Program-made: the position numbers and the translations under genes
The notes under the pieces: generated by a model
What the model saw: only the letters and a program-made list of their open reading frames with translations
Database searches by the model: none
Told to the model about the DNA's origin: nothing
Part shown: piece after piece, positions 14,283 through 63,347 of the stretch
Position numbering within the stretch: position 1 is the first letter of the stretch
Layout of the letters: each line of letters begins with the position of its first letter
From: Crambe crambe
Taxonomy: Eukaryota; Porifera; Demospongiae; Poecilosclerida; Crambeidae
NCBI GenBank assembly: GCA_963924555.1
Contig: OZ004586.1
Span: forward strand, 558,001-622,000
Length of the DNA stretch: 64,000 nucleotides
Direction of reading: 5' to 3'

Positions 14283-14846
14283 GTTTGCACAGTGAAATTC
14301 TCGAAATGATCTATGGCAGTTATTGTTATGGGATAATTGTTGATTGAGCTTGTAGAAGTTGATTATAAGCTTTCTACGAGCCCCACCTCCAAGGACCAAG
14401 ACGTTTGAAATCCGTAACTAGGTTATCACTGAGTTTAATTATTGTAGGACTTTAGTTCAATGAATGGTAATTCTAGAACTGTGATACAGTTATTTCAGGA
14501 CAATTTTGTCGCTTTTTGATCACAAGCTTTTCTACGAGCCCCACCTCCAAGACGTTTGAATCCCGGAAACTAGAGTTTATCGCAGGACTTCAGCTCGATG
14601 GCAATTCCAGAAAACTAGACAAAAAATAGAAATAAGAAAACAAAGGGCGTGGTATTTCGGGAGATTCCCTTAAGTAAACAACTTTAACGCGCACGTGCAG
14701 TTAGTAATAATACGAGCCCCACCCAGCTATCAGAAGGAGCATGCGCACAAGAGAACTGGCATAATAATAAAGTAATATAACAAAAAGAGACTAATAGTTA
14801 AAGTTTCAAGTTCAAGTTTACTAGCTAGCTAGGAATTTTCCAGTTC
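14283..14846 (-). promoter_or_regulatory. Space between giant gene 3' end and right ankyrin gene 5' end, with direct repeats
   Basis: Two direct copies of a segment of roughly 90-150 bp (from about 14370 and about 14524) share TTTCTACGAGCCCCACCTCC, AAGACGTTTGAA and TAGGACTTTAG/GCAGGACTTCAG strings. A third TACGAGCCCCACC is at 14711-14723. The region must hold the giant gene's 3' untranslated end and the ankyrin gene's promoter. ATTAAA-type strings exist on the minus strand (about 14433), but I see no convincing AATAAA for the giant gene. Confidence 0.45.
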
Positions 14847-17800
14847 TCAAGTGTTGACTTGTCGACATCCATCAATTCCATTCCCATTCATGTCCATGAT
14901 GGCTCCAGAACGGTACACCAGAAAACAGTCCAGAACTCCAAGAGTACGTGTACACATGTCCTGTCTCTTGATCTCATTCAGATCTGCTTCTGTGAAAGCA
15001 AAGGTCACTTCTGGGAGGTTATCAGTCAAGACTCTTCCTCCATTCAGTTGGTGCTGAGTATCAGGATCAATAGGTATGGGCATAAAGGTCTCGTTGTTGA
15101 TGAGTGCAAGGTAATCAAAGATCAGTGAAGTGGCATTGACTGTTTCATCAAATCTTAAGGTCAACTCCCCACGATTCATATCGATGGCAAAGTTGAGGAG
15201 TCTTGGTGGGGTGGTGTCAGGGACAAAAGAGCTCAAAGAGAAAGTTGGAGACTGAAGAACAGGATTACCATCCATGTCCATAATGGTGATGCTTGTGAGG
15301 GAGAGGTAGAGGCTCGAGTTATCCACTGCAAGCGTTTCACGAATCTTTATCTGGTTGAGGTCATCGTTGGTCAGGACGATGCTAATGATGTTGAGTGGAG
15401 GTGATACAGAGACATATTGTCCACTGAGGGAGTAGGATGGAGTAGATGTTGAAGCACGATCAAAGAGATTGATACCACTTGTATCCAAACTTGATGAGTT
15501 CACTGTCTCTGAGAACGTTAAGGTCAGAGTTCCACTGTTAGCATCGAAATCGAATCCAGTGAGAACAGGGTTAATAGTGTCTCGTTGGTAACTCGTCACT
15601 CTGATGGCACCACTAGGGGGAATTCCCACCACTGAGTTCCCGAACGTATCATCGATGGTATCCTGTGAGAAGAAGATGTAAGTATCATTTTCAGATGTCC
15701 CTAACAGATCACGACGCTTTATCTCGTTGAGGTCAGAGGTGCTCAGGCTAATGACCACCTGGGGCAGGTTGCTGGCCTGCATGGTCCGGCTGGTGTTCAG
15801 AGTGTATGTTAAGTTGTCTCCAGTGATGTTGATACCTGAAGCAAGGGTGATCTGAGAGACATCAAGCGATTGGAAATCCACAGACTCATTGAAGGAGAGA
15901 GTCAGAGTTTCAGCTGTGACGTCCAATGAAAATCCCAGGAGTGAAGGAGGGGTGGAGTCTGGAGTGTACCTGCTAACTGGTATTGCATTCAGTCCACTGA
16001 GGATCGGTACGACTGGATATCCTGAGACGTCCAATATAGTGGTGTTGGTCAAAGTGACCCAGGCGGAGGTATTGGTGCCAGCTATGTCCCTCGTTTTCAA
16101 AACATTGAGGTCGTCGTTGGTGATCTCTACGACCACAACAGGGGCATCATTAGTCGTCACAAGCCTTCCATTAGTGAGGGTGTGAGAAGAAGCTTGAAAT
16201 CCCATGGATGTCCATTGGAGAGTGATCCCTGTGAAATCAATGGTGGATACATCGACTGTCTCAGAGAAGTACAGAGTCAGGTAGCCATTATTGAGGTCGA
16301 TATCAAAGCTTTGGAGGACAGGGTTAATGGTGTCTTCAACGAATGCACTTGCTTGTAGGGCAGAGTTGGCTGAGATTTCAGCAACTGCATTGCCATTGAA
16401 GTCGCTGATAAAGCCAGGGATGATGCGTAGGAAGGAGGATCCAATGTCGACGAGGAGATCCAAATTCTGCTTGATGAGGTTCAAGTCCTCCAGAGTTATG
16501 GCTAAAACGACTTCAAGGTGATCTGTAGTTGTGGATTCACCTCCAGTCAGAGTGACTTCTTGCACACGACTCCCTGCTCTTTGTTGAGCTTGCAGAGTCA
16601 AGAATGTCTCATTGATTGTTCCAATGTCAATGGGCTCATCGAAATTCAGAATCAAAGTGCTGGCATTGACATTCACCACAAAGCTGGTCAAACGAGGACT
16701 GATGAAATCTCCATAGAAGTCGGCGATGCAGTTTGTAGTAGAAGTAATGGGCACACCAATCATTGAGAGGTCTCTTATTGCACTGTCTCTGAGAAAAACG
16801 CAAGTGTTGTTATCGTCTGTTCCCAAGTCTAAGTTTGTTTTCAAGCTATAGAGATCTGCCTGACCCAGGGTGATGGTGATCTGGGTGGAGTCGACTCTTG
16901 AAGCATTGCTGTCTCTCAGAGTGAACTGATTGCTTCCCATATCGTCAGATTGGATCTCAATGTTGGAGATTTGAACACTCGACGCATCCACCGTCTCGTC
17001 AAACGTCAAAATCAGCTCCTCGGAGGTGAGGTTGAGGGAGAACCGAAGGAGAACAGGAGGAGTCATGTCCGCCATGAAGGTACCAGAGAGAGCACTGCCA
17101 TTGGAAACAGCAACAACAGGAAGACCAAAGAAGTCCCTGATGAGGTCAGAGGTGTGGGAAATGAAGGTATTTGTAGGTGCTGTGGCAAGAGTGGTGATTG
17201 CCTTGATTGCATTTGCATCAGCATCCGAGAGGAAGATGTTGACTTCTACCAAGTTTTCCAGATTTGCTTGACTGGTTGCTGTTAGTGTGTAAGAGCTGGA
17301 AGAGGCACTAGACCGTCTTCCCTGTAAGGTCAGCTCTCTGACATCAAATGAAGAGATGTTGACTGCCTCTGAGAACGTGAGAGTGAGGATTCTTGCATTT
17401 AGATCGAGATTAAATGAAGTGACGATTGGCTGAGTGGCATCAGTGAGGAATTCACTTGCTGTTATCGGATTGGTCGGTGGGACAGACACAACATCATTGG
17501 AGTTGTAATCACGCGTAAGATCACTTGTTATGGAGAGTAAAGTGTTCAATCTTGAAGAAGCAAGATCAGGTCGACTCTTTAACTCATTGAGGTCGTTTTG
17601 TGTCAACTGGAAGGTGACTATGTGAGGAGTCGAAGAATAGTTTATGAAAGAACTTCCTTCAGTGAGGGTGTACTGAATAGAAGATGGAGCTGTTGTGACA
17701 TTCATGTTGCCAGAACCACTTGTCATTCCTGAATCTGAGGCTGAGCCTGATGCTGATCCACTGCCTGAAGTAGCGGGATCAGGTCTGGCTAGGAAAGTGA

Positions 17801-19500
17801 TGGTTGAAACAGTGAGGAGAGGAATGCGGACTGTTTCAGAGAAGGTCAGAATGAGTACCTCACCCTGGAGGTCAAGTGTGAAGTTGAGCAGGACTGGAGC
17901 TGTGGTATCCATGGTGATGTTTGTCACTTGAGTTGGGATTGTGTTGTTACAGTAATAATTGGAGGTGGAATCTTGAATCGAGCGCTCACTCAGAAGGACA
18001 AAAGTATCGGTGATTTCAGTAGCAAGAGCCTCGTTTGCCAGCAGCAAGTCAAGATCAAAATCAGAGAGCATGAGGTTTATAAATCTTGTGTATTCTCCAG
18101 TGTTGAATGTACCAGAAGTGAGGCGATATCTCTCCCCCATTGTCCCATTGTTGTTAAGCACTGTTAACATTGTCGGATCAAATGTTGAAGTGTTAACAGT
18201 CTCGTTGAAGGTCAAAGACATCAAACCAACATTCAGATCAAAGTCAAAACTTTCCAGACTGGGACAGTCACTGTCGGAAGTGAAGTTAGATGCTCCAAGA
18301 TTGACTCCAGGGACTCTTATTGGGTTGGAGAACTGGTCTTGCATGAAGTCGGGTGAAAATGACAAGAAGGTATTTCCTTGTTGAGTAGCCAGAGTGATGA
18401 TGGATTTGATGTTGTTGACATCCTCTGTAGACATCTGGAAGACGATGATCGTACTGCTCTCATTTACCGTCAGAGGGACGGGGGAAAACCCTGTCAGACT
18501 GTAATTGCTGGATGTTGGATTCCGAGAAGGATCTGCAAACTGGAATAAAACTACTTCAGTTGGATCGAACGAGGTCACGTTTACAGACTCTGAGAAGAAG
18601 AAAGTGATTGTGCCGAGGTTGAGGTCAAACTCGAATGAAAGCAGCTCAGGAGGTGTGAAGTCGAGTGAGATATTGCTGACTTCCAGGGCATCACCAGAGT
18701 CTATCACTGCCAAGGGATTTCTAAATGTATCCATTATGACATTGGAATTCACAGTGATGTAAGTGTCGTTCTGATTGGTCGCCAGTCCAGTCAAATCCTT
18801 AATCATATTGAGATCAAACTGTGAGAGCTGGATCACAATTTCAGGTGAATTTGTCATGGAGAGATTGGAATAGCTGGAGAGACTGACAGAAGAAGTGATG
18901 TTTGTGAGTTCAGGGTCAGACTGAAGAGTGATACCTGTTACATCAAAAGTGCTCACATTAACAGTTTCTGTGAATGATAAAATGAGAATTTCTCGATCCA
19001 AGTCTAACAAGAATGACAGCAATTGTGGGTCGGTCAGGTCAGGGGAGAAGACAGTCACAGGAACGGCATTGGTGTTTGGAATTGGAGCAAGTCTGTTGGA
19101 ACTCATATCCACAATTGCCGATTCTGTGACAGAAAGGAAGGTCGTCTCGTTACTCACCCCAATAGAATCCAGCTGCTTTATGCGATTCAGATCCTGTGTA
19201 CTAATATTCACCACGATTACCGTCCCATTGATGCTACTGGTGAAACTCATGTCAGAGAGAGAGTACAGTGGTTGTGTTGAATTGGCTTCAGACTGGAGTG
19301 ATATTTGTGTTACATCAAGTGAATCTGCATTAACTGTTTCACTGAAAGTCAGTGTTAGGATTTCCTGATCGAGATCAAGATCAAATCCTTGGAGTTGAGG
19401 TGACACAGTATCACTGGTGAATTGTTCAGCTTGTCTGGGTGTGGTGACGGGGAGCACAGGATTTGAATTCATATCTTGAATCAGTGTCTCAGTTAGAGTC
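14847..19500 (-). repeat. Higher-order unit 7 (about 12 domains, contracted)
   Basis: Contains the class at domain 118 (CPSLESF, FDPTML), the DEPI class at 122, the SAWVTL class at 123 and a terminal Cys-class domain (CTRTLGVLDCFLVY). The classes are in the usual order but with about six domains missing. Confidence 0.5.
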
Positions 19501-22500
19501 AGGAAGGTGTCAGTAATATCAGTGGCTAACTCTGTTTGGAATTTAATTGCATTGAGATCAGGAGTGCTGAGATTCAATGCCAGATAAGAAGAGTGGTCAG
19601 TGTTCAGAAGTTGGCCTCCAGTTAGTGAATATGATTGTGCTCCTGGAAATATGCCTTCGTGGAGAGTGACCTGAGTGACCTCGAATGTTGTGATGTTCAT
19701 AGTCTCGGAAAAGTTGAGGTAGAGGACCTCCATCGTGAGGTCGATGCCAAATGACTCCAAGTAAGGCCTGATTTCATCCTCCACATAAGTCTGAGCTGGA
19801 AGCGCTGAAGTGTTGGAAATTGGAACTATGCCAAGTCCGACCATGTCAAAGATGGAATTGGAATCAAGAACGAGATAAGTGGAGGCATTGCTTGAAGCAA
19901 GAACTGGGAGTCGACGTATTTCATCAGAATCGAATCTGCTGAGGTTGACCACAATGGTGGGGTTGGAGACGAGAGACGTGACTATGCTATTAGTGAAAGT
20001 GTGGGAGAGAGTCGTGTTGTCATCAAACACTTCCTCACTTTGAAGTGTGACTCCATTGATAGCAAAGGAACTGGTGTTCACTGTCTCTGAGAAGACAAGA
20101 GTGAGGAGATTAGAAGTGAGATTTAGATCATAGCTGACGAGAGATGGTGGTGTAGTGTCATCTGTGAAGTTTCTCACAGGTTCAGGGATGACGATATCCT
20201 CGACAGAATTCCCATCCATGTCCTCAATGAGGTAAGAAGTTATCACAAGATATGTGTTGTTAGGCGAAGTTGCTAGATTGTCAATTCTCTTTAAATTGTC
20301 CTCGTCCTCTCGCAGTATCTGGACCTCTATGACAGGTGAGTTTTGCATCCCGACTCTTCCCTCCAACAACTGGTATTGCAGGAAATATGGTATTTCTGAC
20401 TCCACGATTGTGATAGCAGTGAAATTAATCGTGGATATGTTCACAGTCTCCGAGAATCCCAATGTTAAGGTGACTCCATCCATGTCCAGATCGAAGAACT
20501 CCAGAACAGGACTGCTGGCATCTCTGGTGTAGTTAGTGACTCTCAACTGAGACGTAGTGAGGTTATTGCCTGCCATATCAGCAATGGCAGTGGGGAGGAC
20601 CCTCAATGATGTATCAAGCTGACCAGTAGCTAGATTTGTGAGGAGTTTAATGGCATTGAAGTCACGTCTGGTGATATCGATCATCACTATGGAACTGTTT
20701 TCGGAGAGACTGAAACTGGACATGAGTTGGTAGCTCTCCCGAGGGGATCCCAGACCAACAAGCGTGAAGCCAGAGATATCAAGTGAAGATACATCGATTG
20801 TCTCAGAGAAAGAGAGTGTAATGATGCGCTGGTCAAGATCAACGTCAAAGCTCTGGAGAATAGGTGGGACGACGTCTTGGAAGAACATATCAACTTGAAG
20901 AGCGTCATTCTGTGATACCTCCACAATATTATTTCCAAACACATCTTCAATAAGGTTAGAGTTAATTCGGATAAAGGTGTTATTCTCTTCAGTAGCCAAC
21001 TCATACATTTGCTTGATGGTGTTCAGATCGTCCAGACCCAGAACGACCTCAATCACACTGCTGTCCGAAGAGTTGAGGTAGCTAGAACCAGTCAGTCTGT
21101 AATGGTTGAATGTGTTGTTTCCATCTGCAGTATCCTGGAAGTAGATTGACGAGACATTGAAGAGAAAAGTGTCCACAGTTTCAGTGAAGCTCAGGACAAT
21201 TACTTCTCTGGTGAGATCGAGGTTGAAGGACTGCAGCTGAGGTGGGGTCATGTCTGAGGTGTAGTTTCTGACCAATCGGGCGTTGACGCCATTCCGTAAA
21301 GCTACTACTTGCTGGTCATTCATGTCCAGAATTGTGCTCTCGTCCAGAGTCAGCCATGTTGTCTCTCTGGAGACACCAATCCTTCTTCTCTTAAGTTCGT
21401 TCAAGTCCTCCAAGGAAATCTGAATGGATGCTAGAAGGCCATCTTGAAGCATAGTGAGCATTCCACCTGTAAGCATGTACCTGTTACCAGGGTCACTAAC
21501 ATTGGAGCTCCTCTGGAGTACGATTCTGTTGAACATTGTTGTTGAAACGTCCACAGTCTCGGGGAAACTCAGGAGCAGTATGCCACTGTTGACATCCAGG
21601 TCAAACCCAAGAAGAAATGGAGATGTGGTATCGTTAGTGAACATGGAGGTAGACAAAGCTTGTGATGGTTGGATCTCATTAACTCTATTGTTATTCATGT
21701 CAGTAATGGCTTCTGGTGCAATACTGAGAAATGAAGTAGATTCATTGGTGAAGAGGAATTCATCTCGTTTGATGGCGTTGAGATCATTGATGGTCAAAGA
21801 GATCTCGATCTGTAAGCCATTGGAGCTGTTCGTAAAGCCTCCATTGAGACGGAAGAAGTTAGGAACGGTTTCTTGGTCACCACTCGAAGAATCATTAGAA
21901 CCAGATCCGATCTCCACTGCAACTCTTCCAGAGTACAAAGTGAATCCAGTGAACACAATGCTGCTTGCATTGACAGGCTCATCAAAGTTGAGGGTGATCA
22001 GGCCTGCATTCATATCAACAGTGAAAGACACGAGGTTTGGGTTGACTCTGTCTTCTACATAGTCATCTGCAAGGATTGCTGTTATTGATGGCTGAATGTA
22101 GTTTGGTTCCAGGGCCATATCATGGACGGCTGATGGAAGGAGCTGGAGGTATGTGTTGTCTGCTGAGGTAGCTAAGTCGGTGTCCAGTTTGATTTGGTGC
22201 AGGTCATCCAGAGCCAGAAGCAGCGAGATGATGGTGGAATTCTCCATTGATATCCTTCGATAGTCTCTCAGAATGTGGTACGAAGAATAGGAAACATTGG
22301 CACCAGAATGGAGAATGAGTTGACTGATATTGAAACTCTCCAGCCTCACAGTTTCGTCGAATGTGAGGATGAGGAACTCAGATGTCAGGTTGAGTGTGTA
22401 GGAGACTAATCGAGGGCCTGTAGAGTCATTAATGTATGCATCGGCCAACAGGGCCATGTCTGAAGTTATAGGTTGTAGAGGTAGTCCAATCATATCACTG

Positions 22501-25500
22501 ATTCCATCAGCATCTATCGAGAGGTAGGTTGAATTTGGCGTGTTGGCTAACTCAAATATCTCTTTGATGGCGTTAAGATCAAGAGAGCCGATGAAAACTG
22601 TTATAATTGGGTCATCAGTGCTATTCGAGTAAGAAAACTCAGGTCCCATTCCCATTCCATCGACTAGAGTGTAATTCTCACCAATCACAAGAGACAGCTG
22701 AGACTGGAATGTGATGGAAGAGATATCGAGAGTCTCAGCATCGACTGTCTCTGAGAATGTGAGAATAAGGATCCCTTCATCAACATCAAGACTGAATCCA
22801 TCCAATACAGGACGAATCTCATCTTGAATGAAATTGGTGACCTGTAGGCCATTAGATCCAGATATCTGTAGGACGGCATTTTGGTTCATATCTTCGATGG
22901 CTGTGTAGTTCAGAGAGAGGTAGGAATTGTTTCTCGATGTGGCCACTTCTGTGAGACGCTTTAGATTATTGAGGTCTAATGTTCCAATACCCACGGTGAT
23001 GGACGTGGCATTTGGAGATGTAGAGGAACTTGAAGGAGTAAGGCTGAGAGTAAAGAGAGGACCAGAAGAGTCCCGGGCGTGTTGGATGGTGATGGATTCC
23101 ACATTGAGGGAGTCCCTGTTCACGGTCTCGTTGAATCTCAGCAATAACTCGCTATTATTCAGGTTGAGGTCAAACTCCTCCAGCCTTGGGCGATTGCTGT
23201 CAGGAACAAACACAGAGACAGGCAAGGCCTGGTCGTCTGGAATGTCGTTTACAGCATTGCTATTCATATCCATGATAAGTAGAGATGAGATGGACATGAA
23301 AGAAGTAAAATTGCTGGTTGCTAAGGTGTATAGTCTCTTCACTTCATTGAGATCTTGATCTGACAACATAATGATGATAACATTAGAATCATTTGAGTTG
23401 GAGTAGCTTGTGTTCGACAGCGAATGTGAGTAAACTCCTCCAGAGATATTGGAGCTGTCCTGTAATGTTATCTGAGTAATGGAGAGGGAGTCGGCTAGGA
23501 CTGTCTCAGAGAACATCAGGGAAACGATTCCTACGTTCATGTCAAAGTTGAATGACTGTAGAGAAGGTGAAACCCTGTCATCTGTGAAGATACTCACAGG
23601 GAGGGCAACGATGTCTTCCACAGCTATGAGGAAGTTGCCACTCATGTCTGTAATAGCACCACCAGTCACAGAGAGATAGGTGTTGTTTTCGCTTGTGGCC
23701 AGACCAGTAAGTCTCTTGATCTCGTTCAAGTCAGGAACTGATAGTTCCACATTCACAATGTGGTAATCATTCGGCTGCGAAATACCTCCAGAGAGGTCGT
23801 ACCTCTGCATGACTGACATGTCATCTCCACCAGAGAGGACAGTGTATTGGTCCAGGGCGTGGGTTGACACCCTGACAGTCTCTGAGAAGGAGAGAGTTAA
23901 GACGTCGGAGGTCAGGTTGAGATTGAATGATATGAGTTCAGGGCTGATGACATCACGCTCAAAACCACTAGCCCTGAGGGCAGTGGAGTCCATAATTGCT
24001 GTCACTGGATTCCTGTTCATGTCCAAAATGGCTTGCTGAGTGATCGAAATGAACGTGTTATTCACAGATGTTGCTACTTCTGTCAAACGCTTTATTTCAT
24101 TCAAGTCATTGAGACCCAGGAAGATGGTTACAATGGTAGAAAATGCAAGAGAATGGTTGCTGTCAGACAGTGTCCTGAAATCAGACCGTACACCTGCTCC
24201 TTGGATGGTGATTTCCGGAATACTGAGTGAAGAGCCATTAACTGTCTCATCAAAAGTCAAGATGATCACTTCCATGGTGAGATCAAGGGAGAAAGTAACA
24301 AGCTGAGGAGAAGTAAGATCATTGTTGAACTGGACTACTTGAATTGCCGACTCATTATCAACTGCTTGGACTTCATTGTCATTCATATCCATGATAAGTT
24401 CTTCACCGAATGCTATGAACATATCTCTGCTCCCAGTAGCAAGGTCATCAAATGCCTTAATGATGTTATGATCTTCCACAGAGAGATACAGAGTTATTAC
24501 TGTGGAATCAACAAGAGAGGCAGAGCCGTTTGTAAGTGTGTGGAAGGAACTTGTCTCACTGATGTTCAAGGCATTCAGTATCGTGATCTCTTCTTCCATG
24601 ATTGTGTTGGCTCTCACAGTCTCATCAAACGTGAGGATAATGGCACCTTGATTTGCATCAAATGTGAAGTCCAGCAGTCGAGGGGAAGTCATATCTTCTG
24701 TGAAGTTGGAAGCCGGGATAGCTTCTTCAACAGTGGAAGCAATCACATCCCTACCAAAGTTATCATTGAATGTGAAGGCTCTCATTGAAATGAAGGTGTT
24801 GTTGCGTCTGGTTGCAAGGTTGTCATTCATTTTGATTTGATTGAGGTCTTCAGTTGATATGTTGATGGTAATGAAGTATCCATTATCACTCTCTGTGTAA
24901 CTGGAAGAAGTGAGGGTCACTGAATTGTCAGTGTTAATTCTACGAGAGTTCTGCAGAGTGAGCCCAGCAGGATTGAAAGTGCTGGCATCGATGATGTCAT
25001 TGAATGTTAAATGAACGAGCCCAAGATCCAGGTCAAGAGTGAAGTCAATCAGTGATGCTTGCATGTCGTCGGACACAAACCTAGAGGCTGCTAGAGCCCC
25101 CTCTGGGGGAACTGCCACCAGGTCATTGCCAGCCATGTCTTGTAAACTTCCTTGCCTCACACTTAGCCAAGTGTCTGAGATTCTTGTTGCAAGATTACCA
25201 GAGAGCTTCAAGTATCTGATGTCGGGTTGGAGGAGCTGAACTATGAGAACCATTGTCCCATTGAAGTCAGTAGCTTCAGTTGTGGTGCCTCCTAGTAGTG
25301 TTCTGTTGTCACTGGGAAGTGCCGAGGGTTCTGATTGGATGGTGAAGCCATCGTACATGGCACTTGAGACTCGAATGGGCTCGTTGAAAGTTAGGAGAAT
25401 TTGATCCAAATCAAGGTCCAGCTCAAAAGATGTGATCCTGGGAGGTGTTTGATCTCGAGTAAGAGTACCAGGTGTGACGGGTATTGCTGATGCAGGTAAG

Positions 25501-28500
25501 ATGGGGTTGACTTGGTTCGGAGTGGTCCTTGATACTGCATCGGCTATCAAACTTTGATTGATGGCTATGAAGGTGTTGAGATCTGCGGTGCCAATATCAT
25601 CCAGAGCTTTGATGCGATTGGCGTCCTCAGGGAGCAAGTCCACCACAATGAAGCGGCCATCGCGAGAAGAAGTGGTACCACCAGTGAGGGTGATCATGGT
25701 GGCATTGTCGGAGCGAGCGTTCAGCAAGGTAATGGCGGTAGCATCCAATGTGGAGACCGACACAGTCTCACTGAAGGTCAGAGTTACTGTATTCAGGTTC
25801 AAGTCGAGTTCAAACGACTGAAGGTCTGGTCGTCCTTGATCATCAGTGAAGGTGGAAACATACTGAGCTCTTTCTAGTGGGATAGGGATGATTGGATTGG
25901 TCGATGTATCTTGTAGAAATCCGTCTCCAAGAGCAACCCAGCAGTTAAAAATGGCCGTGCATAGTCCTCTCTGCCGCTGTATTTCGAAGAGATCCTCATC
26001 AGTCAGCAAAAACGTGAGACTTGTGTTGTCAGAGGATACGATGTTACCTCCCGTGAGGTTGTACGAGAACTGGGGGAGACGGTAGAAGGAGTGCAAGGAG
26101 ATTCTTGTCAGGTCCACACTTGAGGCATTTATAGTTTCATTGAATGTTAGTACGACTGTTCCAGAGTCCAAGTCAAACAAAGTGAACGCCGTGAGAGAGA
26201 CTCTGTTCATGTCTGGAGTGAACTCAGTAGAAGGGAAGCGACACTCTTCAAAAGTGGCAGGATCTATTGGATTCCATGACTGGTCCGTGATTGGTTCACC
26301 CATGATGGAGAGGCAGCAGTCTCTCCCATTGTTGTTGTACAAGCAAAATGGCAGCCGTTTGACCTCATTCAGGTCTTCAGTTGTCAGAGGACAAGTGAAG
26401 AAGGTCCTCTGGTCGTTGTTGCAGAGTCCTCCAGTGAGAGTAAAGTTGTAAATAGGCATATTACACAGTTCATTCATATTGAAACTCCCACTTCCAAATA
26501 TTCCATTCATACCCATACCACTCCCATTCCCAAATAAGCCACCAGTCATGTCACTCTCATTAACCATGCTCATGTCACTCTCATTAACCATGCCCATGCC
26601 ACTCCCTAAGCCACTCCTACTTCCTGAATCAACTGGACAGTTGAAGCAACAGTCGTGCAAAACGAGGTCCAAGGGACTGAGTACGGATATATTCACAGCT
26701 TCACTGAAATTCAAATTGAGGACTCCAGAGTCTAAATCCACTGCAAAGGTCAAGAGTTCAGGAGGTATTTGATCGCCAATGAAGGTACCAGTTCTTACAC
26801 GTAGGGCTTGTCCATCTGTGATGGGTACTAGCATGTTATTGTTCATATCTCTCACCAAATTGGATCTGGTGACTAAGAAGGAGTTGTCACCAGATGTGGC
26901 TACATTCTCCAGTTGTTTCAGGCTGTTCAGGTCGTTGAAAGAGAGCTGGAGTTGAATCACAGTGTTGTCATCTGTCACATTCCAAACACCTCCTGTGAGA
27001 GTGTAAGTGCTCATAGGACTTGCTGTCTGAGAGTCTTGGAAAGAGATGGCACTGGGATCAAACGTTGAGGCTCGCACTGTCTCTGAGAATGTGAAGCTGA
27101 TATTTCCAGTGGTGAGGTCCAGTGTGAAGCTATTCAGAGTAGGTTGGGTGGTATCCTGAGTGAACACTCGTACTGATCTGGCTGACATATCTGGAATCGA
27201 TGTGACAGAGTTATTCGCTGTGTCAGAGATAGCTTCGGGGGTGAGAGAGAGGAAAGTGTTGAAAGAGGAAGTTGCTAGGTTGGTGATGCGTTTGATTTCA
27301 TTGGAGTCCTCGGGAGAGAGATTGATGACAACAATGGTACCATTCATGCTACTGGTGGTGCTGGAGCGTAGGGAGTACTCGACTGATGCTGTTGTGTTAT
27401 CTTGTAAGGTGATAGAGCTGACATCGAGACTCTCCGTATTGACAGTTTCATCAAAAGTAAGAGACAATTCACCAGGTCCATCTAGATCCAAGTTGTACGA
27501 CACCAACATTGGAGGAGTACTGTCTTCCACGAAGAGTCCAACTTGAAGTGGGTCAGTTGAAGTGATGGGAACAATGTTAAGCTCTGAAGTGTCACTCAAA
27601 GCTGCTGCAGTCAGTACAATATAAGTGTTGTTCCTCTCGGTTGCCAAGGTTACGATCTGCTTGATGCGATTCACGTCAGGTGTGGTGAGGGAAACCATGA
27701 TTACCGACCTATCCTTGGTGGTTCTCACAAAACCTCCTGACAGAGAGAATGTAGAATTTGGGTTAGGTCCATCAACAAGCTGAAACTGAGCGAAATCAAG
27801 GGTTGAAAGGTCGATGGTCTCTGAGAATGACAGAGTCAGTACTTCTGTAGTTAGGTCCAAGTCAAATGCGTCCAATGTTGGTGGTAACACATCAGCTCCG
27901 AAATCATCCAAATTCACTCTGGAAGCACTTGCTTCTAACACAGCTGTCACTGAGTTAGCTACCATGTCCTCAATGAAGTCTGAAGTAAAACTGATGAAGG
28001 TATTGTTGACATTGGTTGCTAGGGAAGGTCGTGCTTTCAAGGCATTCAGATCAACAAGGCTGAGTTGTATGGAGAAGATTGGAGAGTTGGAATCGTTGGA
28101 GAAACTTGATGAGGTCAGAGTGTAGAAACTGAATCCATCGACATCTCGGGAAATCTGAGGTGTGTTCTGGAAGGTAAGTCGAGTGACATCAAGTGTCCCT
28201 GTCACATCAACTGTTTCCGAGAACGTGAAGCTGATAACACCAGACGTCAAGTTCAGACCGTACGTTAGCAACACAGGCTCTGTGATGTCCGCAGTGTAGT
28301 TATCAACTCTTGCTGCATTAATTCCATTCAACCTCTCCTCCACCTCTTGCATGTTCATGTCACTTATCAAAGTACTTGGAAATGTTAGCCAAGTGGTGTT
28401 AGCTTGGTTAGCGATTCTTCTGATTTTAATCTCGTTAAGATCATCATTTGTTATCTGAATGAAGACGATCGTGTCATCCCTATTGGAGAGAAGTGACCCT

Positions 28501-49500: not shown

Positions 49501-52500
49501 TCTCTGAGACGAGGAGAGATGGAGTCATTGAAGAAAGCAAAGGCCATAGTGGCATTGTTAGGTGAGATTTCACTCACATTGTTGCCACTCAAGTCTTGAA
49601 TCAACTCTGAACTTAAGCTGATGTAAGAGCTGTCAAGATCTCGCAACAAGAGAAGCATCTGTTTCAGAATGTTAACGGTTTCTTCTGACAATGTGATGGT
49701 GATTTGGAGGCCATCTTCACTGATGGAGCTACCATTGGTCAGAGTGAGAGTCTCATACTCTGAGATGTTAAAAGCGCTCGCATTCATTATCGACTGGAGA
49801 GTAATCCCGCTGAAATTCAGAGAATTTCGTTCCACAACTTCATCGAAGTTGAGAATTAACTGAGACTGGTCGAACTCTACCACCCATGAGGCAAGATTCG
49901 GTGGAGTGGTGTCTGGAACGAAGCTCATGATTTCAAGGGAAGATGGTACTACAAAGTTAGGGATTTCCGACAAGTCTTGGACTGCATTTTGACCAATGGA
50001 GAGAGCAGTGTTGCTGGAACTTGTGGCTATGCTACGATCGAGTTTGATGTTGTTCAAGTCGAATTGACTGAGCGTGATTGTTACAACTGGAGATGGAGTC
50101 ATTGATGCTTGGCTTCCTGAAGTCAATGAGTACGTGTTGTTTTCATTATCAAATTCCGAGCTCTGTAAAGTGATGGTGTCCACTCTGAAGTTCTCAGGGT
50201 TGACACTTTCAGAGAAGGAGAGGGCTAGCTCACCACTGTTCAGGTCAAAGTCAAAGGCAGTGAGTCGAGGAGGTGTCACGTCAGAGATGTAGCCATTTCT
50301 CTGCACTCCCAAAGCTTCAGTTGCATCGACAGTCACTACAGAGTTATCAAAAGTATCGGAAAGAGCTGAACTGCTGAAACTGATGAAGGTAGTGTTCTGG
50401 TTTTGTGCTAAACTTGGAATTTCTTTAATGGCGTTTTGATCTGTGTTCGATAGTTGGATGACAAGCACATGACTGTCGGTACTAATCACAGTTGCATTGA
50501 CCAAAGTATATGATATGTTAGAGATGCTGATATTGTCAGAACTCTGAAATTGGAACTGAGTGACGTTGACGGAACTTGCTGAGATGGTTTCGCTGAAAGT
50601 GAGGAGCAACTGTCCCTGATTGGCATCGTATGTAAAGAACTCCAGCACTGGTGGAACCTCATCAGCAATGAAAGAGGATGGAGGAACAGAATCCTCAGGA
50701 TTTACGGGAAAAACCTGATTTTGATCGACATCTGCAACAGCTACTTGTCTGATGGAGATAAACGTATCGTTCCTGTTGGTAGCGAGATTTGAAAACCTCT
50801 TGATTGCATTGGAGTCATCTCTGCTCAAGAAGATAGTGATTTCGGTCGAGTCTTCTTGAGATGTGACACTATTGGTGAGTTGGACTTGATTTGTTGTTGT
50901 GCTAGATGTGTTAAGCAGTGTCACACCACTGACGTTAAAGGAGGATGCATCAACAGTCTCTGAAAACGTCAGGATCAGCTCAGATGTGTTGAGATTAATG
51001 CTGAAATCAACCAACATGGGTGGGGTCATATCCCTAACATAATCTGAAGTCGTTATGAGCTCAGATAGAGCAACAGAATTGCCAACTATATCTTCAATTG
51101 CAGAGGGCTCAAGCTGTAAGAGTGTATTCTCAAGTCCAGTTGCTAGAAATTGAGTGGCTTTGATGGCATTGAGGTCGGCAGTTGATACTTGGATCTCTAT
51201 CGAGGCTTCATTGACGCTTCCTATCACTGTTGCGTTAGTAAGTCGATATTCAATCGAGCTAGAGGTAGCATTGAATAGAATCACTCCAGTGGCATTGAAA
51301 GTGGAGACTCTTACAACCTCGGAGAAGTTAAGAGTTAGGATTCCTGTGTTCAAGTCAAAAGAGAAGGACTCGAGGATTGGAGGCGCTTCATCTTGTGAGA
51401 AAGACACAGATTCTACGGCAATAGGCTGGCTGGAGTTGATGGCCACCACTGGATTGCTATCTACATCTCTCACAGTGCCTGAGGTCAGAGACAAGAACAG
51501 GTTGGAAGGATCTGTGGCAAAGTTCTCATTCATTTTGATGAAGTTAAGATCTGGAGTGGAGAGGATGAGCTCTAGGATTGGTCCGTTGAATGACTGAGTG
51601 ATCGTTCCAGAGAGAGAGATGGACACCCCACTCCCATTGGACCTGCTATGCAGCGTAATTTGAGTGGAGTCTAAAGTCTGTACATCCACGCTCTCAGAGA
51701 AGTACAGGGTGAGAGTATCGGAGGTCAAGTTGAGCCCAAACCTTTGTAAGATGGGAGGGATGTTATCACGAGTGTACTCAGTGACTCCCAAGGCCATGAC
51801 ATCACTTATAGGCACCACCGGATTGCTGCTGGTGTCTAGGATCGTATTCTCACTGATCACAAGGTAAGTGGAAGCAGCATCTCTAGCTAGGTTGGGGAGT
51901 TCCTTGAGAGCATTGGTGTCTTCCACTGAAAGATTAACAGAGATGACAGGAGAGTTCAGCAGTTGAGGTTGGGATGACGAGGTGAGTGAATAGGTGGCAC
52001 CGGTTCTATATATCCGCTCACTCTGGAAGGTCAATCCAGAGACATTGAGGGAAGATCCGTTCACTGTTTCTGAGAATGTGAGATAGAGAACCCCCTGATT
52101 CAGATCCAGTCGATAGGAGTTAAGTGTAGGACTGAGCATGTCTGGAACAACATCTCTTGCTGCAGTGATGTTTGTCATGTTTAGTGCATTATCTGCAAAA
52201 TCAAACACACTTCCTTCCAGTATTCTTAGGAAAGTGTTAGTGACGTCAGTAGCGAACTCAGGAAACATCTTAATGGTGTTAAGATCAGACTGTGTTAAGA
52301 TAACGGTGGCTTCTGTCAGTGAATTTCTCTGTATTTGGGAAGAGGCATTGAGTGTTAGAGATTGTTCAATGGCTGTATCATTGGTAGTGTTGGTGTTGTC
52401 TTGCAAAACTATGCCATCTGTTCTTAAGGTGTTGAAGTCCACAGCTTCGGAGAAAGTGAGGGTCAAAGTGCCCAGAGTCAAATCAAGGGTATAATTCGTG

Positions 52501-55500
52501 AGGGTAGGAGGTGTGGTGTCTGCTGTGTACTCCTCAGGCAATACTCCAATCCCGTTCCCATTGGTCACTGCGATCACGTTCTCTCCAAAGACATCTTGGA
52601 CAGAAGATGCACGTAATGTGATGAAAGTATTTGTATCGTTGCTGGCTAAATTCTCAATGGACTTGATGTTGTTGAGGTCATCATCACCAATTTGAACCGT
52701 GAGCGAAAATCCATCTGGACTGAGATTGATACTGTTGCTCGTGAGTTGGTACCGGAATGAGTCCTGGGCATCAGCTGCGTTTTGGATGATAATGCCACGA
52801 GGATCAAAACTGCTGCTACTCACAACATCATTGAAAGAGAGTATGAGCCTCCCAGTGTTAACATCGAGAGAAAAGGACTGTACCCTCAGCTCAGTGCCAT
52901 CAACAATCACATCTTGACTTTGGATACCTCGGACTGCCATGTTGGGTTCTCCGAACGTGTTAAAAACTGTGTTGTTCCTCAAAATGATGAAGGTATTGTT
53001 CACATTAAAAGCAAGAGTGCGAGAGGACTTCAAAGCTGTAGCGTCAGCTTCATTCAGCTCTATTATGACGTCCATTAAACCTTGATTGCTATCCAGAGAG
53101 TTGGTTACTCTTCCTCCTGTCAGTGTGTACACTTCATCCATGGCTGTCGGGTCACGAACACTGGTGAATGAGATCCCAGTGAAGTTGAAAGTGTCTGGTA
53201 GGACAGGCTCATTGAACATCAGCAAGAGGCGATTCGTGTTATAATCGATGGAGAAGGAGCGAAGGATCGGACCGTCCTCATCGGCTGTGAAGTTCCTCAC
53301 AGGTAGAGAATCCTCGGAGGAAATCTCGTCATTCTGGTTTGGAATGAATGACGTATCACTGAATGCCTCAGGCAAGACAGAAATAAATGTTGTGTTACTG
53401 TCAGCAAAGTATCTTGAAGCCTTCAGTGACTCAATATTATCACCACTGAGGTAAAGGAGAAGGGACCTTGAGGTTGGTGAGGTCCTGTTGAAAGGAGCAA
53501 GCAAAGGAAACAGAACTGTGTCAGTAACGTTTGAAGCATTCATCGCACCTTGGAGAACAATATTCTCATAATTGATCGAGTTCAGTTCGATAGGCTCACT
53601 AAATTCTAAGGTGAGGTAGCCCACAGCAAGGTTCAAGTCGAAGGCAATTAGACGAGGATTAATGGTGTCAAAGGTGAAATTCTGCACCAGGAACCCAGGG
53701 AAGGCATCTTGTGTTGGAACCACCTGATTGGAGTTCATGTCATCGACCAAACTCTCGGGAAAGGAGATGTAGCAGTTACCCCTGAAGGCACACACCATGT
53801 CATTCTGCTTCAGGGCATCCAAATCTGCTTGAGTGAGGTTTATCTCCAACCTTGAAGTGTTCACAGCAGGCACCGTCCCTCCGGTCAGTTGAACAGCCGA
53901 TGTAGGATTGGCAAAGAGATTTCGGAAAGAAATGGTGGAGAGATTCAATGTTTCTATGTTTAGTGTCTCAGAGAATTGCAGAATGATTAACTCACGGTCG
54001 AAATCGACCTGGACCAACTGTTCTAACTCTGGCTGTGTTGTGTCAGGTATGAACTCTCCTGGAAGCTCAGCACTATCTTGAGGTATTGGCAACACTGCAA
54101 GGTTTACCATATCCAGGATCAAGTCTTCCGTGAAAGTGAGAAAGCAGTTGCTTCCCTCGGTACAAAATGGCAGACGTTTCAGCTCATTGAGATCAAACCT
54201 GCTGAGAGAAATGCTGATAATATGGCTAATGTCTAAGTTGCTAAAACCATTTCTCAGAGTGAGGTTGTAAGTCGACTGATTGGATGCATCCTGAAGAGAG
54301 ATCTGAGAAGCATCAACCGTAGTCTCATTGACTGTCTCATCAAATGTTATCAGGATTCTACCAGTGTCCATATCAATCGTATAGTTAGAGATTTGAGGCC
54401 GAATGGTGTCTCTGGTGTAGTTGAAGACACTGATGGCAGCAATGTTAGGTACATCTATGAGCTCATTCCCTGCCATATCTCTCAATGCTTCACGATCGAT
54501 AGTGATGAACGAGTCGAGGGTTGATGTCAAGAGTCTATCCGTAGCCTTGATACCATTACTGTCCTCTTCTGAGAGTTGTATGGTGAGAATGATGGAGTCG
54601 TTACTTGTCACAACACTGTTTCTCAAAGTGTAGAACCTGTTAGCGTTACGATCACTATTCTGAAAAGTTATCTGCCTGACGTCAACTGAACTAGCGTTAA
54701 TGGTCTCAGAGAAAGTTAGTGTGATTGTCTCAGCAGTGAGATCAAAGTCAAATCGTTCCAGTCGAGGGCCAGTTCGATCTCGTATGAGCATTCCTTGAAA
54801 TGGATTGTCAGGACTCACCATGAAAGCCTCGTTGAGTGAATAGTCCAGCACTACCCCTCTCTCGAAGGAAAGGTAAGTGGTTAGACGAGAGACAGCAAGA
54901 TTTGTAAGGAGCTTAATCGTGTTCAAATCATCATCAATGATTTCAAACATGAGAAGACTTCCCTCAGGTGAGGTGGTGACATTTGTGGCATTTGTGAAGG
55001 TGAAGAATTGACCAAGACTTGAGTTGAAGCCCACTTCACGTCCACTGTGAATGGACAAACTCATCGGTATGAAAGATGAGGCTAAAACTGGTTCAGTGAA
55101 CTGCAAGGTGACTGCTCCCTTGTCAAGATCCAAGATGAACATATCGATTCTTGGGGGGTTCAGATCAGCAAATGAGCCGTTGATATTGGTGGAGTTGTTA
55201 ACATCAATGGGTACAATGGGGTTATCAGCCATGTCCAGGACGCTGTTGGGAGCAATGGCCAAGAATGAGGTCTCGGGGGACGTCAGAAGAAAGGTGGAAT
55301 CGAGTTGTCGAATGCTCTCCAGGTCTGTTGAGTTGATCAGTATCATAATGAAGGTTGAGTCCACACTTGAGACAAGGCCACTTGTGAGTTGGAATGTCTG
55401 AGTGCCATTAGACGTGTTACTAAAGGTGAACCCAGTGGGTCGAATGGAGGAGGCATTTACAGTTTCAGAGAAGAGCAATTCCAGAACTAGATTCTCAGTT

Positions 55501-58500
55501 CCTCTTTGTAGGTAGAGATTGAAGAGGACCAGTTCAGGTGGTAACATGTCTTGCGTGAAAACAGTAACTGGAAGAGCTCTCTGGTCAGAAATGGTGACAA
55601 GTGCATTGTTGTTCATGTCTTGAACGGCTCCTTCTAGCACCGAAAGGAAAGTGGTGGAGTTGAGGACTGCCAGAGTCGTATCCTGCTTGATGGGGTTCAA
55701 ATTATCGTCTACGATGGTAATGGTCAGAATGTGACTGTTTTCAGTAGAACCGATGGAAGCGGTAGTGAGTCGGAAACTTCCCTCCAGTCCGGACAGTACT
55801 GAAGAGTTCTGTACAGATTGGAAAGAAAAGCCAGTTACATTCAAAGTGGACGCATTGACAGTCTCGGAGAATGTCAGCGTCACTTCTCCAGAGCTGAGGT
55901 TGAAGTTGAAGGAGAGAAGGTAAGGACTGATTTCATCAGGGTAGAACCTTGAGACGTTCAAAGCTTGAGAAGGTGGAACGGATACGACCGAATTATTCAT
56001 CGTGTCTCTGATAGCACTTGAGGTGATAGAGATGTAAGTGTCATCCTCAGACGTGGCCAAATCCAATCTCTTAATCTCATTCAAGTCATTGGTTGAGAGT
56101 TGTATGAAAATTTCAGTTGAGTCTACAATTGGAGTGACGAAACTGTCCACCAAGGTGTAGCTAATGGCTCCTTCTCTGCTGTCTTGGAAAGTGATGGCAT
56201 TGTGGTTGAAGCTGGAAGCACTCACTGTCTCGTTGAAACTGAGAGCAAGAACATCGCTGGTCAGGTTCAAGGTGAAGCTGATGAGTTGTGGGCCAGTTGT
56301 GTCAGGGATGACATTGTATGCTTGCAGTGGATCGGTGGTAGGAACTGCCAGCACTAAGTTCATGTTCATATCTTCGATAAGATGAGGTGGAAGTGATAGG
56401 AAAGTATTGTCCACTGATGTTCCTAAAGTTAGAAGAACCTTGAGTGTGTTCAAGTCCATGGATGTCAGAGAAACAGTTACGTGTGTGAAGTTTCTCATGG
56501 AGACACTTCCACTGGTTAGAGTGTAAGTCTCAAGAAAGCTGCTGAAGGAGCCATTTAGGAGAGTAAGAGCAGTGAAGTTCAAACTCTGAGCATTGACAGT
56601 CTCGGAGAACACTAGTAGCAGTTCTCCTTCATCAAGGTCAAGGGTGAAATTAAGCAGTTGAGGGGGAATTTGGTCGGGAATGAAACTGTCTGCCATGAGA
56701 GCAGATCCATCAAACATCCCAGTGATACTATTTCCATTCATGTCCTGAATTGCACCTGAGTCTAGACGGATGAAAGAGTTTCCCAGTTCCGTAGCAAGGG
56801 TGAAAATTTCTTTGATCAAATCAGTGTCCATCTTGGAGATATCAACCACAATGATGGAAGAGTTCTCACTCTGCACATCTCCAGAGGTAAGTGTGTAGCT
56901 GTTATTGGACTCTACCTCATCTTGTAGCGTGATACCTCGAACGTCTAATGTGGGCGCTGAGACTGTTTCAGAGAAATTCAAGGTAAGTTGAGAAGTGTTT
57001 AGGTTCAAACTGAAGCCTTGTAAGACAGGTAGGATTACATCTGGAGTGACAATACTGGCACTCAGAGCTGATGTGTTGGAGATGGACATGATGGCGTTTC
57101 CACTCAAGTCTCTAATGAGTGCAGAGGTGATGGAGATGAAGGTGTTCTCCACCACTGTGGCTAAGTTCAGGAATTCCTTAATGCGGTTGAGGTCGGGAGT
57201 CTGGAGTTGAACATCCAGCTCAAAGTCATTTTCTCCCACTGAGCCATCAGTGAGAGTCACTGATAGGTCGGCTGAAGTCCTGCTGCTCTGGATGGTTATA
57301 GCACTGGCCATAAAGCTAGAAGCATTGACAGACTCGGAGAAGGATAACGTGAGAGTTTCGTTGGAAAGATCAAGACTGAATCCCTCCAGCATTGGTGGAA
57401 CTGAGTCACGGGTGAAGTTAGTGACCCGGAGAGCCATAGATTCAGATCGATTCACAAGGAGGTTTCCAAACATGTCAACAATGGCTGAAGATGTGAAAGA
57501 GAGGTAGGTGTCATCTTCTGAAGTGGCCAGACCTAGCTCCAATTTGATCTGGTTGAGGTCATCTCGACCCAATCGTATGACTATGGAAGTTCCATTACTG
57601 CTGTTCAGAGTGCTGACTTCTGTTAGGGAATAGTTGACTCGTGCCAACTGATCCTGAAGTGTGATCTGAGTCACATCTAACGACATAGCTCGCACAGTTT
57701 CGGAGAAAAACAATTCCAGTGTCTCCTCCGTGAGATCCAGATTGAAGCGATCCAGAACAGGTGATGTCATGTCAACCACATAGCTGGTTGCAGCTCTTCT
57801 AGTGACTGCAGTTGCATTGTTGTTGAAGATATCCTTGATGAACAACTCACTGAAAGTCACAAAGGAGGTGAGTATGGAGGAACCGATCTGAAGTCTCTTC
57901 AGTTCATTCAAGTCGTCAGTCAGAATTCGAAATTGGATGATTTCACCATTTGAAGTTGTGACGACATCTCCACCAGTCAACCGATAGCTCTGATCATCAA
58001 TACCCATCAGTCTTGCTTGCTCTAGAATGACCTCTGTGATTTGGATGGTAGATATATTCACAGGTTCATTGAACTCAAAGGTGACTAAGCCACTGTTCAA
58101 ATCGAGTTCAAACGAAATCAGAGTTGGGCTGTTCGTATCCACAATCAAGTTATCAGCCTGCAAGGGAGCAGGTGGAGGTGAGAGAGCATTTCCAGCCATA
58201 TCCTGCACAAGATTGCTCATTACAACTAAATATGAAGTGTTCAAGGAGACAAGCAGTTCGTCAAGCACTTTGATTCCATTGAGGTTTTCAGTTGATAAAA
58301 TGATGGTGAGTGCTAACCCATTGATGGTGTTATTCACTGGAAGCACTGTGCCGTTGTTCAACGTGAACATTGAAGTCACATTCTCATCAGCTTCTGCATT
58401 CCGGAAGGTGATGGCATCAAAATTCACACTACTCCCATTCACAGGCTCATCGAAGTAAAGCACGAGTAAGCCAGTATTAAGATCTATGTCATAAGACTGT

Positions 58501-61500
58501 AGAGAAGGCGGGATAGTGTCAGGAGAGACGTTACTGGCCTGTAGGGTCACAGCCTCGATAGCATTACCACTTGGAGATCGGGCATTATCTCGAATGCCTC
58601 TGGCTTGAATATGGAGATAAGTATCACTGGTAGATGTCCCAAGATTCTCAAACAGTTTCAGTTGGTCCAAATTGTACTTGGTAAGGGTGATTCTTATGAT
58701 TGGATCGTCAAGAGTTTGGACTACTGAGTTCCTCGAGAGAGTGAGCTGGGGATTTGTCATTGTTTCATTCACGGCATAAAGAATGAGAGATTCTGGAATC
58801 AGGGATGAAGCATCAACTGTTTCATTGAATGTCAGCAAGAGTGAACCCTCCGTCACGTTAAGAGAGAATTCCAGTAAGAGAGGTGGAGTTGAGTCTTCTG
58901 TATACTCAAAGACTGGGATGGAATCATTGGCAACTAAGTCAAGACCATTCATATCTCGGACAGCACCTGCCGATACTGACAAGAAAGTGTTAGAATCTGA
59001 AGTGGCGAGTTGCCGTTTACGCTGGAGAGAGTACAGATCCAAATATCCGATTCTGACTACTAGGACGATTCCATTCCCACTCTCGGTATCAGAAAATTCT
59101 GGAAACAGTCCATCCATGAGATAATGAGTTGTGTCAGAAGTGTTAGATTCTGGGGCAGCATGAAGGACAAATCCAGTGATGTTGAGAGAAGAGACGTCAA
59201 CAGGTTCATCGAAAGTGAGTGAGAGTCTTCCAATATTCATATCAAGTCCAAAATCCAAAAAGCGAGGTGAGGTCATGTCTTCTGTGAAATTACGCACCAT
59301 TTGACCATCTATGGGAGACACCCTGTTACTATTCATGTCCATGATGGCAAATGTTGTCAGTGATATGTAACAGTTGCTGCGAGAGGTGCAGAGGGAGGTA
59401 AGAAGCTTTATCGAGTTGAGATCTGATGTCTGTATCTCCAACAAGACCATTGTGTCATTGATCTGCGATATTACAAAGCTGTTTTCGATGGTATAATTCT
59501 CTGCTGATGCTAGCAAGTCCATATGCGAGTGCAACGTGATCTCAGTTGCATTGAAAGAGGTAATATCAACTGTTTCATTGAAAATCAACAAAATCTCCTC
59601 CCTTGTCAGATCCACATCAAAATCCACCAACTCAGGAGAGGTGACATCTTCAGTTATCTCCTCCACCATCAAATAATCCGAAGGACTCATTCTGCCATCT
59701 AACAGATTTGGAACAGGGGCCAGATCTACAGCTGCTCCTGCTGACACGCTCAAAAAGGTCGTATCATTGCTAATCGCCAAATTGACGAGTCTCTTGATTG
59801 AGTTCAAGTCGTCTACAAGCAAAGTGACTTCCACTATCGGAGGGTGGCCGGGGAAGACATTCGTCCCTGACAGGAAGCCTCCATTCAACCTGAATCTTGT
59901 TGATGAGGAGCTGTTATCACTATGGAGGGTAAGACCCTGAAGATCCAGTGTGGATGCATTTATAACCTCAGAGAACGTTAGAGACAAGATGCTTGAATCC
60001 AAGTCCAAGTCAAAGGATATTATTTCTGGGGAGGTTACATCAGGAATGAGAGTGTTGGGGGTGACTTGAAGAATGGAGCTGCCATTAACGTAAGGATTTC
60101 CATTCACATCCATCACACCAAAATTGCCAAGCTGCAAGAAAGTTGTCTCGAAACTGGCAGCCAGTGATCGACGGAACTTGATGAGGTTTAAGTCCATGGT
60201 TCCCAGTCTGACGTCTATTGTCACGCCATTGGTGATCTCATTAGTGCTGTCGATGAGAGTGTAGATCATCTCTGGCATGGAATAATTGGACAGGAGCATC
60301 AGGGAACTGATGTTCAAGGTGGAGGCATTTACTGTCTCAGAGAAGGTCAACCTCAAGAATCCCGTATTCAGATCAATGGAGAATGCGACTAACTCTGGAG
60401 GAGTTCTGTCTTCAATTACATCGAGAGCCTGCAAAGCTGCATCTCCAGAGATTGGTTCAACAGGGTTTTGATTCATGTCCAGAATGGTGGCATCTGTGAT
60501 GGAAATGTAAGTATCGTCCACACTGGTGCCCAGCTCAGTCAGACGCTTTATCTCATCAAGATCACTTCGGCCTAAATTGATGACAATAATGGTCTCATTG
60601 ACACTATTGGAGATGCTGCCATTGGGAGGAGAGCCAGGGATCAATATGTGATATTCGCTAGAATTCGTTATGTTGGAAGCACTGGCTTGAAGAGTGATGG
60701 TTAATATCGAAAGAGAGGTCACATCCACTGTTTCTGAAAATGTCAACTGGAGGAGACCGGAATTGACATCGAGAATGAAAGAATCCAACTCTGGGTTTAT
60801 CTCATCGGGAATGAAGTTGGAAGCTTGCATTGGAACTGTGTTAGTGCCGTATTGATTGCCACTCATGTCTGCCACGACCAGTGAAGTGAAGAACAAGTAA
60901 GCGTCGTTCACTGAAGTTGCAATCCCCAGCATCTGTTTGATGACATTGAGATCAGTGGTGGAGATATTGAGCTCAACGATTGGTGAGTTCACAAGGGAGT
61001 TATCTCCTCCAGTCAACACAGAGGACTGACTAGAGAGAGGTCCTCCACTAATGGTTATCTGGTTAGGCTGGAAAGTAGAAGCATTGATCGTCTCGTCGAA
61101 AGTTATCTGCAACTGCCCGAGATTCATATCTAAGAAGAAAGACATCAGCATTGGAGGAGTTGAATCAGGGATAAACGTCCTTGCCATTCTAGCTCCATTG
61201 TTGGGAATTGGCACTATAAAGTTATCATTTGCATCACTGATGGCAGCAGTTGGAAAAGACAGGTAAGTCGTTGCTCTGTTGACAGCAAGATCTTCGTAGA
61301 GTTTGATGGTATTGAGGTCTTCTCTGGTGAGTGCAATGGAGAAGCTGGTGGGGTAAAGGTTACTAGTCACTTGTCCACCTGTCAGAGTGTATGAGCGTGT
61401 GGCATTGCTCATTCTATTCTGGAGTGTCAGTAACGACACATCGAAGGAATCAAGTTTCACCGTCTCATCAAAAGTGAGAGAAAGAGTCTCTTGATTGTAA

Positions 61501-63347: not shown

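Follow-up and report, generated by a model that had tools for sequence, protein, structure and literature searches.

The window analysed here, a 64,000-nucleotide stretch of DNA from Crambe crambe, contains a giant gene whose coding sequence is never interrupted by a stop. We consider it fairly probable that this gene is one 48.5 kb coding exon, and that its product is a secreted, N-glycosylated chain of 126 Ig-like domains forming an extended filament of the extracellular matrix type. An earlier note on this DNA had reported the uninterrupted 48.5 kb frame, and its extent proved exact; the extreme exon size that was claimed for it was also supported. To the earlier description we add the minus strand, an 18-domain block structure, joint units with cysteine pairs, and a decayed duplicate of the tip of the gene. 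The frame and its N-terminus lie as follows.

14847–63347, minus strand: single open reading frame of 16,166 aa, confirmed by counting stops in all frames.
63258–63347, minus strand: signal-peptide-like N-terminus, aa 1–30, recognised by eye, with a hydrophobic window at aa 8.

The frame comprises 16,166 codons (48,501 bases) with zero internal stops. Over these bases, the five alternative frames (two sense, three antisense) contain 1,084, 1,209, 623, 403 and 1,538 stops, and none of them stays open for more than 258 codons. With 0 stops versus 403–1,538 in the other five frames, a chance open frame was ruled out; the giant frame is a real, selected coding frame. A different account holds that the frame is an assembly artefact of misjoined repeats, or a fossil gene whose frame is out of use. 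This we judge very improbable. The window is without undetermined bases (no N), and a single substitution would turn 3,317 of the 16,166 codons into stops, yet none has been hit. A decayed copy of the gene's tip, described below, displays the effect of lost selection. Moreover, in-gene copies that blastn aligned over more than 150 columns share only 57–66% DNA identity, so assembly confusion is unlikely; a collapsed or expanded assembly was also rejected.

The start codon stands in the context ATC-ATG-G, and a TGA in the same frame lies shortly before it. Together with the signal-like N-terminus, this agrees with the proposal of a signal peptide in a good initiation context. A putative 3′ splice site, CTATTTGTTCACTAG, also recognised by eye, stops 25 nt 5′ of the ATG and raises the possibility of an intron in the 5′ UTR. 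Because of the upstream TGA, no coding exon could be read through this candidate site. At the other end, the canonical AATAAA is absent from the 400 nt downstream of the stop. Within the frame, splice-donor-like GTRAGT motifs occur 13 times versus 13.7 in 300 synonymous shuffles and are thus not depleted, and AATAAA or ATTAAA occurs 9 times versus 21.1 (z −2.9), a mild depletion. Since the donors are undepleted and the antisense control TTTATT leans the same way as the poly(A) signals (z −1.9), neither test favours a single unspliced message. Taken together, the splice-donor, poly(A) and downstream AATAAA results neither confirm nor refute one. A scan of 600 bases for bacterial-type promoters, with a promoter model unsuited to this gene, gave nothing useful, and Rfam gave no match at gathering scores.

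An HMM built from the protein's own repeats produced 129 hits. Because two of the units behind these hits are split by inserts, the protein comprises 126 units with complete starts and an N-terminal half-unit; the count of about 126 repeats given previously is correct. The unit is roughly 125 aa long (range 118–187 aa, with 118 of 126 units within 118–137 aa), and its consensus reads DTTPPELESFDLDLNSGTLTLTFSETVNASSLNVTQITLQ...YTLTGG...STEDLNEIKRLEELATSENNTFLSITSELIEDMNGNPVV.... Pairwise identity between units averages 31% and reaches at most 53%. Asp occupies unit position 1 in all 126 units and position 103 in 125 of them. Inserts of at least 16 aa are strongly localized, with eight of nine falling at HMM column 48, each in a different unit, and several are rich in Ser, Gly, Asn or Thr. 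A recent tandem satellite was rejected, as a tandem repeat finder detected no more than two short arrays within the gene, 59 and 62 bases long. From the N-terminus onward the repeats are arranged as follows.

63054–63257, minus strand: N-terminal half-unit limited to HMM positions 67–122, with Cys at aa 56, 65 and 90, from the HMM and a cysteine count.
54045–63053, minus strand: units 1–24, of which units 7–24 are out of register with the 18-unit blocks, from the register test.
47187–54044, minus strand: block 1, units 25–42, with Cys-pair units at both ends, from register and cysteines.
40257–47186, minus strand: block 2, units 43–60, with Cys-pair units at both ends, from register and cysteines.
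33468–40256, minus strand: block 3, units 61–78, with Cys-pair units at both ends, from register and cysteines.
26214–33467, minus strand: block 4, units 79–96, with Cys-pair units at both ends and ten Cys in unit 96, from register and cysteines.
26451–26630, minus strand: 60-aa insert rich in G, S, M and N within unit 96, at the HMM column favoured by long inserts, from the HMM alignment.
19413–26213, minus strand: block 5, units 97–114, with a Cys-pair unit at the start only and a register that fades after about unit 111, from register and cysteines.
14850–19412, minus strand: units 115–126, the last unit being without its final ~14 residues and forming a three-Cys end, and the final 200 aa lacking a hydrophobic anchor, from alignment and hydrophobicity.

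We then compared the units with each other to ask how selection has acted on them, since the earlier note had argued for selection over the full length. Among identical aligned residues at ten unit offsets, the codon is shared in 0.355–0.383 of cases versus 0.351–0.354 expected from codon usage. Codon positions 1, 2 and 3 are identical in 43, 54 and 31% of comparisons between random unit pairs, where composition alone would give 27, 28 and 26%. Because codon sharing is near expectation and third positions are only 31% identical, synonymous sites are close to saturation. The protein core, by contrast with these third positions, is conserved along the whole gene. Each of the 126 units keeps 11–14 of 14 core positions, and the means for successive thirds of the protein (13.7, 13.5 and 13.7) are even along its length; the 14 positions and their permitted residues were picked by us from the same alignment. 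A comparison from outside the gene comes from the following scrap.

4945–5052, minus strand: decayed copy of the 3′ tip of the giant gene, interrupted by gaps of 4 nt and 8 nt and missing a further 36 nt, from sequence comparison.

Its two pieces are 87% and 76% identical to the giant gene, and it is only moderately diverged and presumably unselected. Since this scrap has gone out of frame within ~110 bp while the 48.5 kb frame is intact, it serves as a control for selection. The saturated synonymous sites, the evenly kept cores, the absence of stops and the contrast with the decayed copy all agree with selection acting on the entire frame.

The middle of the gene is organized at a second level: a block of 18 units (~6.8 kb) is present there five times, in register. 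When excess similarity was calculated for unit offsets 1–109, with unit averages removed, offset 36 ranked first (z 8.3) and 18 second (6.2), followed by 94 (third, 3.3) and 54 (fourth, 3.2), with 72 tenth (1.9). For units 20–117, those of equal phase modulo 18 have a similarity of 0.0316 versus a mean of 0.0002 in 500 permutations (sd 0.0023, maximum 0.0066). Compared pairwise, the five blocks match better in register than in any of the 17 rotations in 10 of 10 pairs (z 2.6–9.6), and units 7–24 match none of the five in register (z −1.2 to −0.3). The register signal spans about units 23–111, with weak spots similarly placed in most blocks. As the period alone fixes no starting point, we set the block edges at the cysteine units. 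When the six 18-unit stretches were placed in a tree, 25–42 and 61–78 were joined with a support of 96, the remaining nodes having 50 and 65. This grouping and the strong offset of 36 therefore give a hint of a 36-unit duplication step. The gene would have grown by duplication of the unit first and then of the 18-unit block, to five copies, all of them ancient.

The cysteines follow the same order. There are only 45 in 16,166 aa and most units have none, but pairs occur in units 24/25, 42/43, 60/61, 78/79 and 96/97, exactly 18 units apart. The two cysteines are spaced by nine residues in units 42, 60, 78 and 96, by six in units 43, 61 and 97, and by eight in unit 79; the first joint is unlike the others because unit 24 has a six-spaced pair. 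Cys-pair units 1, 10, 86, 118 and 121 lie away from the joints, and unit 126 also carries cysteines. The N-terminal half-unit and the last unit each have a nine-spaced pair plus an extra Cys, 25 and 20 residues further on, respectively. Disulfide hairpins are likely at the joints of the 18-domain segments, and the odd cysteine at each terminus could bond chains together.

These joints divide the chain into segments of 24, 18, 18, 18, 18 and 30 units, and both ends of the protein resemble joints. Such an arrangement could also mark a precursor whose cleavage at the joints between blocks would release about six proteins with 18–30 domains apiece. We think this improbable, as the only two R-x-K/R-R motifs in the protein, at aa 5338 (inside unit 42) and aa 8996, both lie outside the joint linkers.

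Structure prediction, which had been proposed as a check on the Ig-like nature of the repeats, supported it. The input alignment contained 115 of the 126 units, with those longer than 135 aa omitted (units 42, 43, 56, 69, 79, 82, 83, 89, 96, 108 and 119). From it AlphaFold2 predicted a single unit as an Ig-like beta-sandwich (pLDDT 94.7, pTM 0.87), and a two-unit model from 104 two-unit rows scored similarly (pLDDT 96.4, pTM 0.88). In a Foldseek search of solved structures with the single unit, SbsC entries 4uic, 2ra1 and 4uj6 appeared at ranks 3, 5 and 8 with probability 1.00, at E-values that are weak (3.5e-3 to 1.2e-2; TMq 0.49–0.51). The best E-value of that search was 1.8e-3, with none below 1e-3; early matches included an amylase and two esterases, and antibody domains filled most of the remainder of the 50 rows. 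In the two-unit search the top ranks went to antibody chains that superposed poorly (TMq about 0.2), and SbsC came at ranks 13, 14 and 30. BFVD gave four matches at E ≤ 0.001, including one ‘Ig-like domain protein’ and one ‘oligo alginate lyase’.

At the level of sequence families, the whole protein, scanned in four pieces, matched no Pfam family at its cut-off; therefore no lectin, Calx-beta or VWD domain is recognisable. The best-scoring family was Glyco_hydro_5_C (PF18564), with 21.9 bits versus a cut-off of 22 (E 2.5e-4, aa 1742–1799, profile positions 10–65 of 87). The consensus unit, too, scored highest with this family (16.9 bits versus 22), which only 2 of 115 single units matched. Although this is the closest Pfam score, it is partial, and no glycosidase domain was found in the giant protein. 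Big_5 (PF13205) scored 16.4 bits with the consensus unit (E 0.016), below its cut-off of 23.6. On single units it was found in 16 of 115 at E ≤ 1, with a best E of 6e-4, and the next families had one or two units each among the 25 of 45 families shown; when the whole protein was scanned in long pieces, Big_5 was not listed at E ≤ 1. The unit thus looks like a domain of the SbsC/Big_5 type, going by the predicted fold and these scores, yet fails Pfam's membership rule. The suggestion of an undescribed class stays a conjecture: the profile check finds no family at cut-off, but the fold resembles bacterial SbsC-type Ig-like domains. PDB sequence searches reached a best E of 0.032 with 1,000 aa and 0.12 with a profile, and PHROGs and NCBIfam scans over 115 of the 126 units matched seven and four families, each in one unit.

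The composition of the protein would suit an exported glycoprotein. After removal of the first 30 aa it has a mass of 1.77 MDa and a pI of 4.05, and the net charge of the whole chain is −1,290. N-x-S/T sequons number 472 versus 302 for the reversed motif, an excess that is not seen for D-x-S/T (307 versus 330). Every unit has at least one sequon, with a mean of 3.7, and they are commonest at columns 33, 28, 90 and 44. No hydrophobic segment was found in the last 200 aa by 19-aa Kyte-Doolittle windows, where the maximum is 1.18 versus 1.57 in the signal region. Internal windows at aa 6667 and 11293 reach 1.62 and 1.61, as hydrophobic as the signal, and both lie inside repeat units. We therefore picture, on our favoured reading, a very acidic and probably heavily N-glycosylated chain of beta-sandwich domains, exported and without a membrane anchor, which may act as a scaffold or as a glycan-presenting fibre in the matrix or cell coat. 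Straight domains of an assumed 4 nm each would add up to ~0.5 micrometre, a length that is arithmetic on that assumption.

A bacterial-type Ig-like fold and the lack of an intron would also be expected if a giant Ig-like adhesin gene had been acquired horizontally from a bacterium, which would account for the missing introns. We regard such a transfer as improbable. Two motif scans of bacterial and archaeal genomes, covering one genome each of 84,980 species and each resting on one motif, and three scans of viral contigs gave 65, 1, 5, 63 and 37 pattern matches, none of which was confirmed as a relative. Similarly, when plasmids and phages were each searched by tblastn, with a 506-aa stretch and a consensus as queries, no relative was found. 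The prokaryotic and viral collections that were covered thus yielded none. Furthermore, the sequon excess fits a eukaryotic secretory protein, and the units are strongly diverged.

The rest of the window includes a duplication that contains neighbouring genes.

9502–14390, no strand assigned: segment duplicated at 1–4672 with about 90% identity, containing an ankyrin gene and a 2A-motif gene, from sequence comparison.

Just past the first duplication copy sits the decayed 3′-tip fragment of the giant gene. Candidate introns with GT-AG borders, 88, 53 and 54 nt long, occur in the neighbour at 12.5–14.35 kb and were chosen by eye among 10 donor-acceptor pairings at three donors; the short introns ascribed to neighbouring genes are accordingly seen, as candidates in one neighbour. 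Paralogous 421-aa ankyrin-repeat frames lie at 718–1983 and 10148–11413, both on the minus strand. The frames at 13999–14310 and 4259–4672, also minus, carry a hydrophobic-looking stretch followed by the 2A-like motif LILCGDVESNPGP and resemble reported N-terminal 2A-like signal sequences. The duplicated genes contain GDVESNPGP, which we take to be a 2A-like motif. On the plus strand, 5813–7412 and 7713–9606 comprise kinase exons and then a long Ser-rich frame, possibly one gene with short introns. An imperfect palindrome at 11763–12001 (opposite-strand self-match of 68% over 246 columns) is missing from the other duplication copy and is perhaps a small inserted element.

It is conceivable, though we think it rather unlikely, that the selected frame encodes a recognition or adhesion molecule and not a structural fibre, acting in allorecognition, in microbe capture or as a decoy. 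The clustering of eight of nine long inserts at column 48 in different units, and of sequons at the four columns given above, would then mark a variable loop that forms the working surface together with the glycans. The duplicated neighbours with ankyrin repeats and a 2A-like motif also fit, as N-terminal 2A-like signal sequences are described in one report that deals with NLR-type immune proteins (PMC4981915). However, the Pfam scan gave no recognisable lectin, Calx-beta or VWD domain, the same profile fits every unit, and the protein has only 3 RGD triplets. A matrix-like filament remains the reading that we prefer.

Very long repeat proteins encoded by large exons include titin, mucins, dumpy and giant ankyrin. 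To our knowledge, a single coding exon of 48.5 kb exceeds any in animals. Unlike those proteins, the giant protein shows no Ig I-set, FnIII, spectrin, ZP or mucin domain at E ≤ 1 in the whole-protein Pfam scan, and a mucin identity was rejected. Membership of the classical, titin-like animal Ig superfamily was likewise rejected, since there is no Pfam Ig-family match over the whole protein and most units are without the Cys that a core disulfide needs. Sponge aggregation factors are giant secreted acidic glycoproteins with Calx-beta and VWD-type domains; neither domain appeared at E ≤ 1 in the whole-protein scan, and this identity was rejected as well. With 16,166 aa the protein is shorter than titin and much shorter than recent bacterial giants. 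A long exon is described for giant ankyrin in one paper (PMC5135030), and 41,754 proteins longer than 5,000 aa are counted in one survey (PMC11573180), so size alone is not new here.

Like SbsC and Big_5 proteins, the giant protein would be a secreted surface protein built of tandem Ig-like beta-sandwich units. It differs from them in its 126 units, its eukaryotic gene context, its N-glycosylation sequons and a score below the Pfam cut-off. Giant bacterial adhesins such as BAP of Acinetobacter have long arrays of 80–110-aa Ig-like modules (PMC4647330). In contrast to these, the giant protein has a eukaryotic context, a signal-like N-terminus, highly diverged units and an 18-unit block order. 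Giant modular Ig-like secreted proteins are an already known kind, to which we would assign this one with a proposed function. What is new is the 48.5 kb single coding exon, the 18-unit order with cysteine joints and a repeat family outside Pfam cut-offs. Among the best-ranked open-access records on giant exons, giant proteins and this repeat, no such gene is described. We suggest, tentatively, that this could be the largest single coding exon of any animal and that its product could represent a novel type of extracellular filament: a glycoprotein ruler of 1.8 MDa made up of 18-domain, disulfide-bounded segments joined via three-cysteine ends.

Its block history makes this gene a clear example of how a giant gene can grow in steps, from the unit to the 18-unit block, with the hint of a 36-unit step. 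That 16,166 aa can pass without a Pfam family at cut-off also shows how domain annotation can overlook such genes. If the gene is transcribed and translated whole, it would test how a 48.5 kb unbroken message is exported, translated and folded into a 1.8 MDa secreted protein. If our reading is true, it would show whether animals build matrix fibres from a bacterial-type Ig-like fold.
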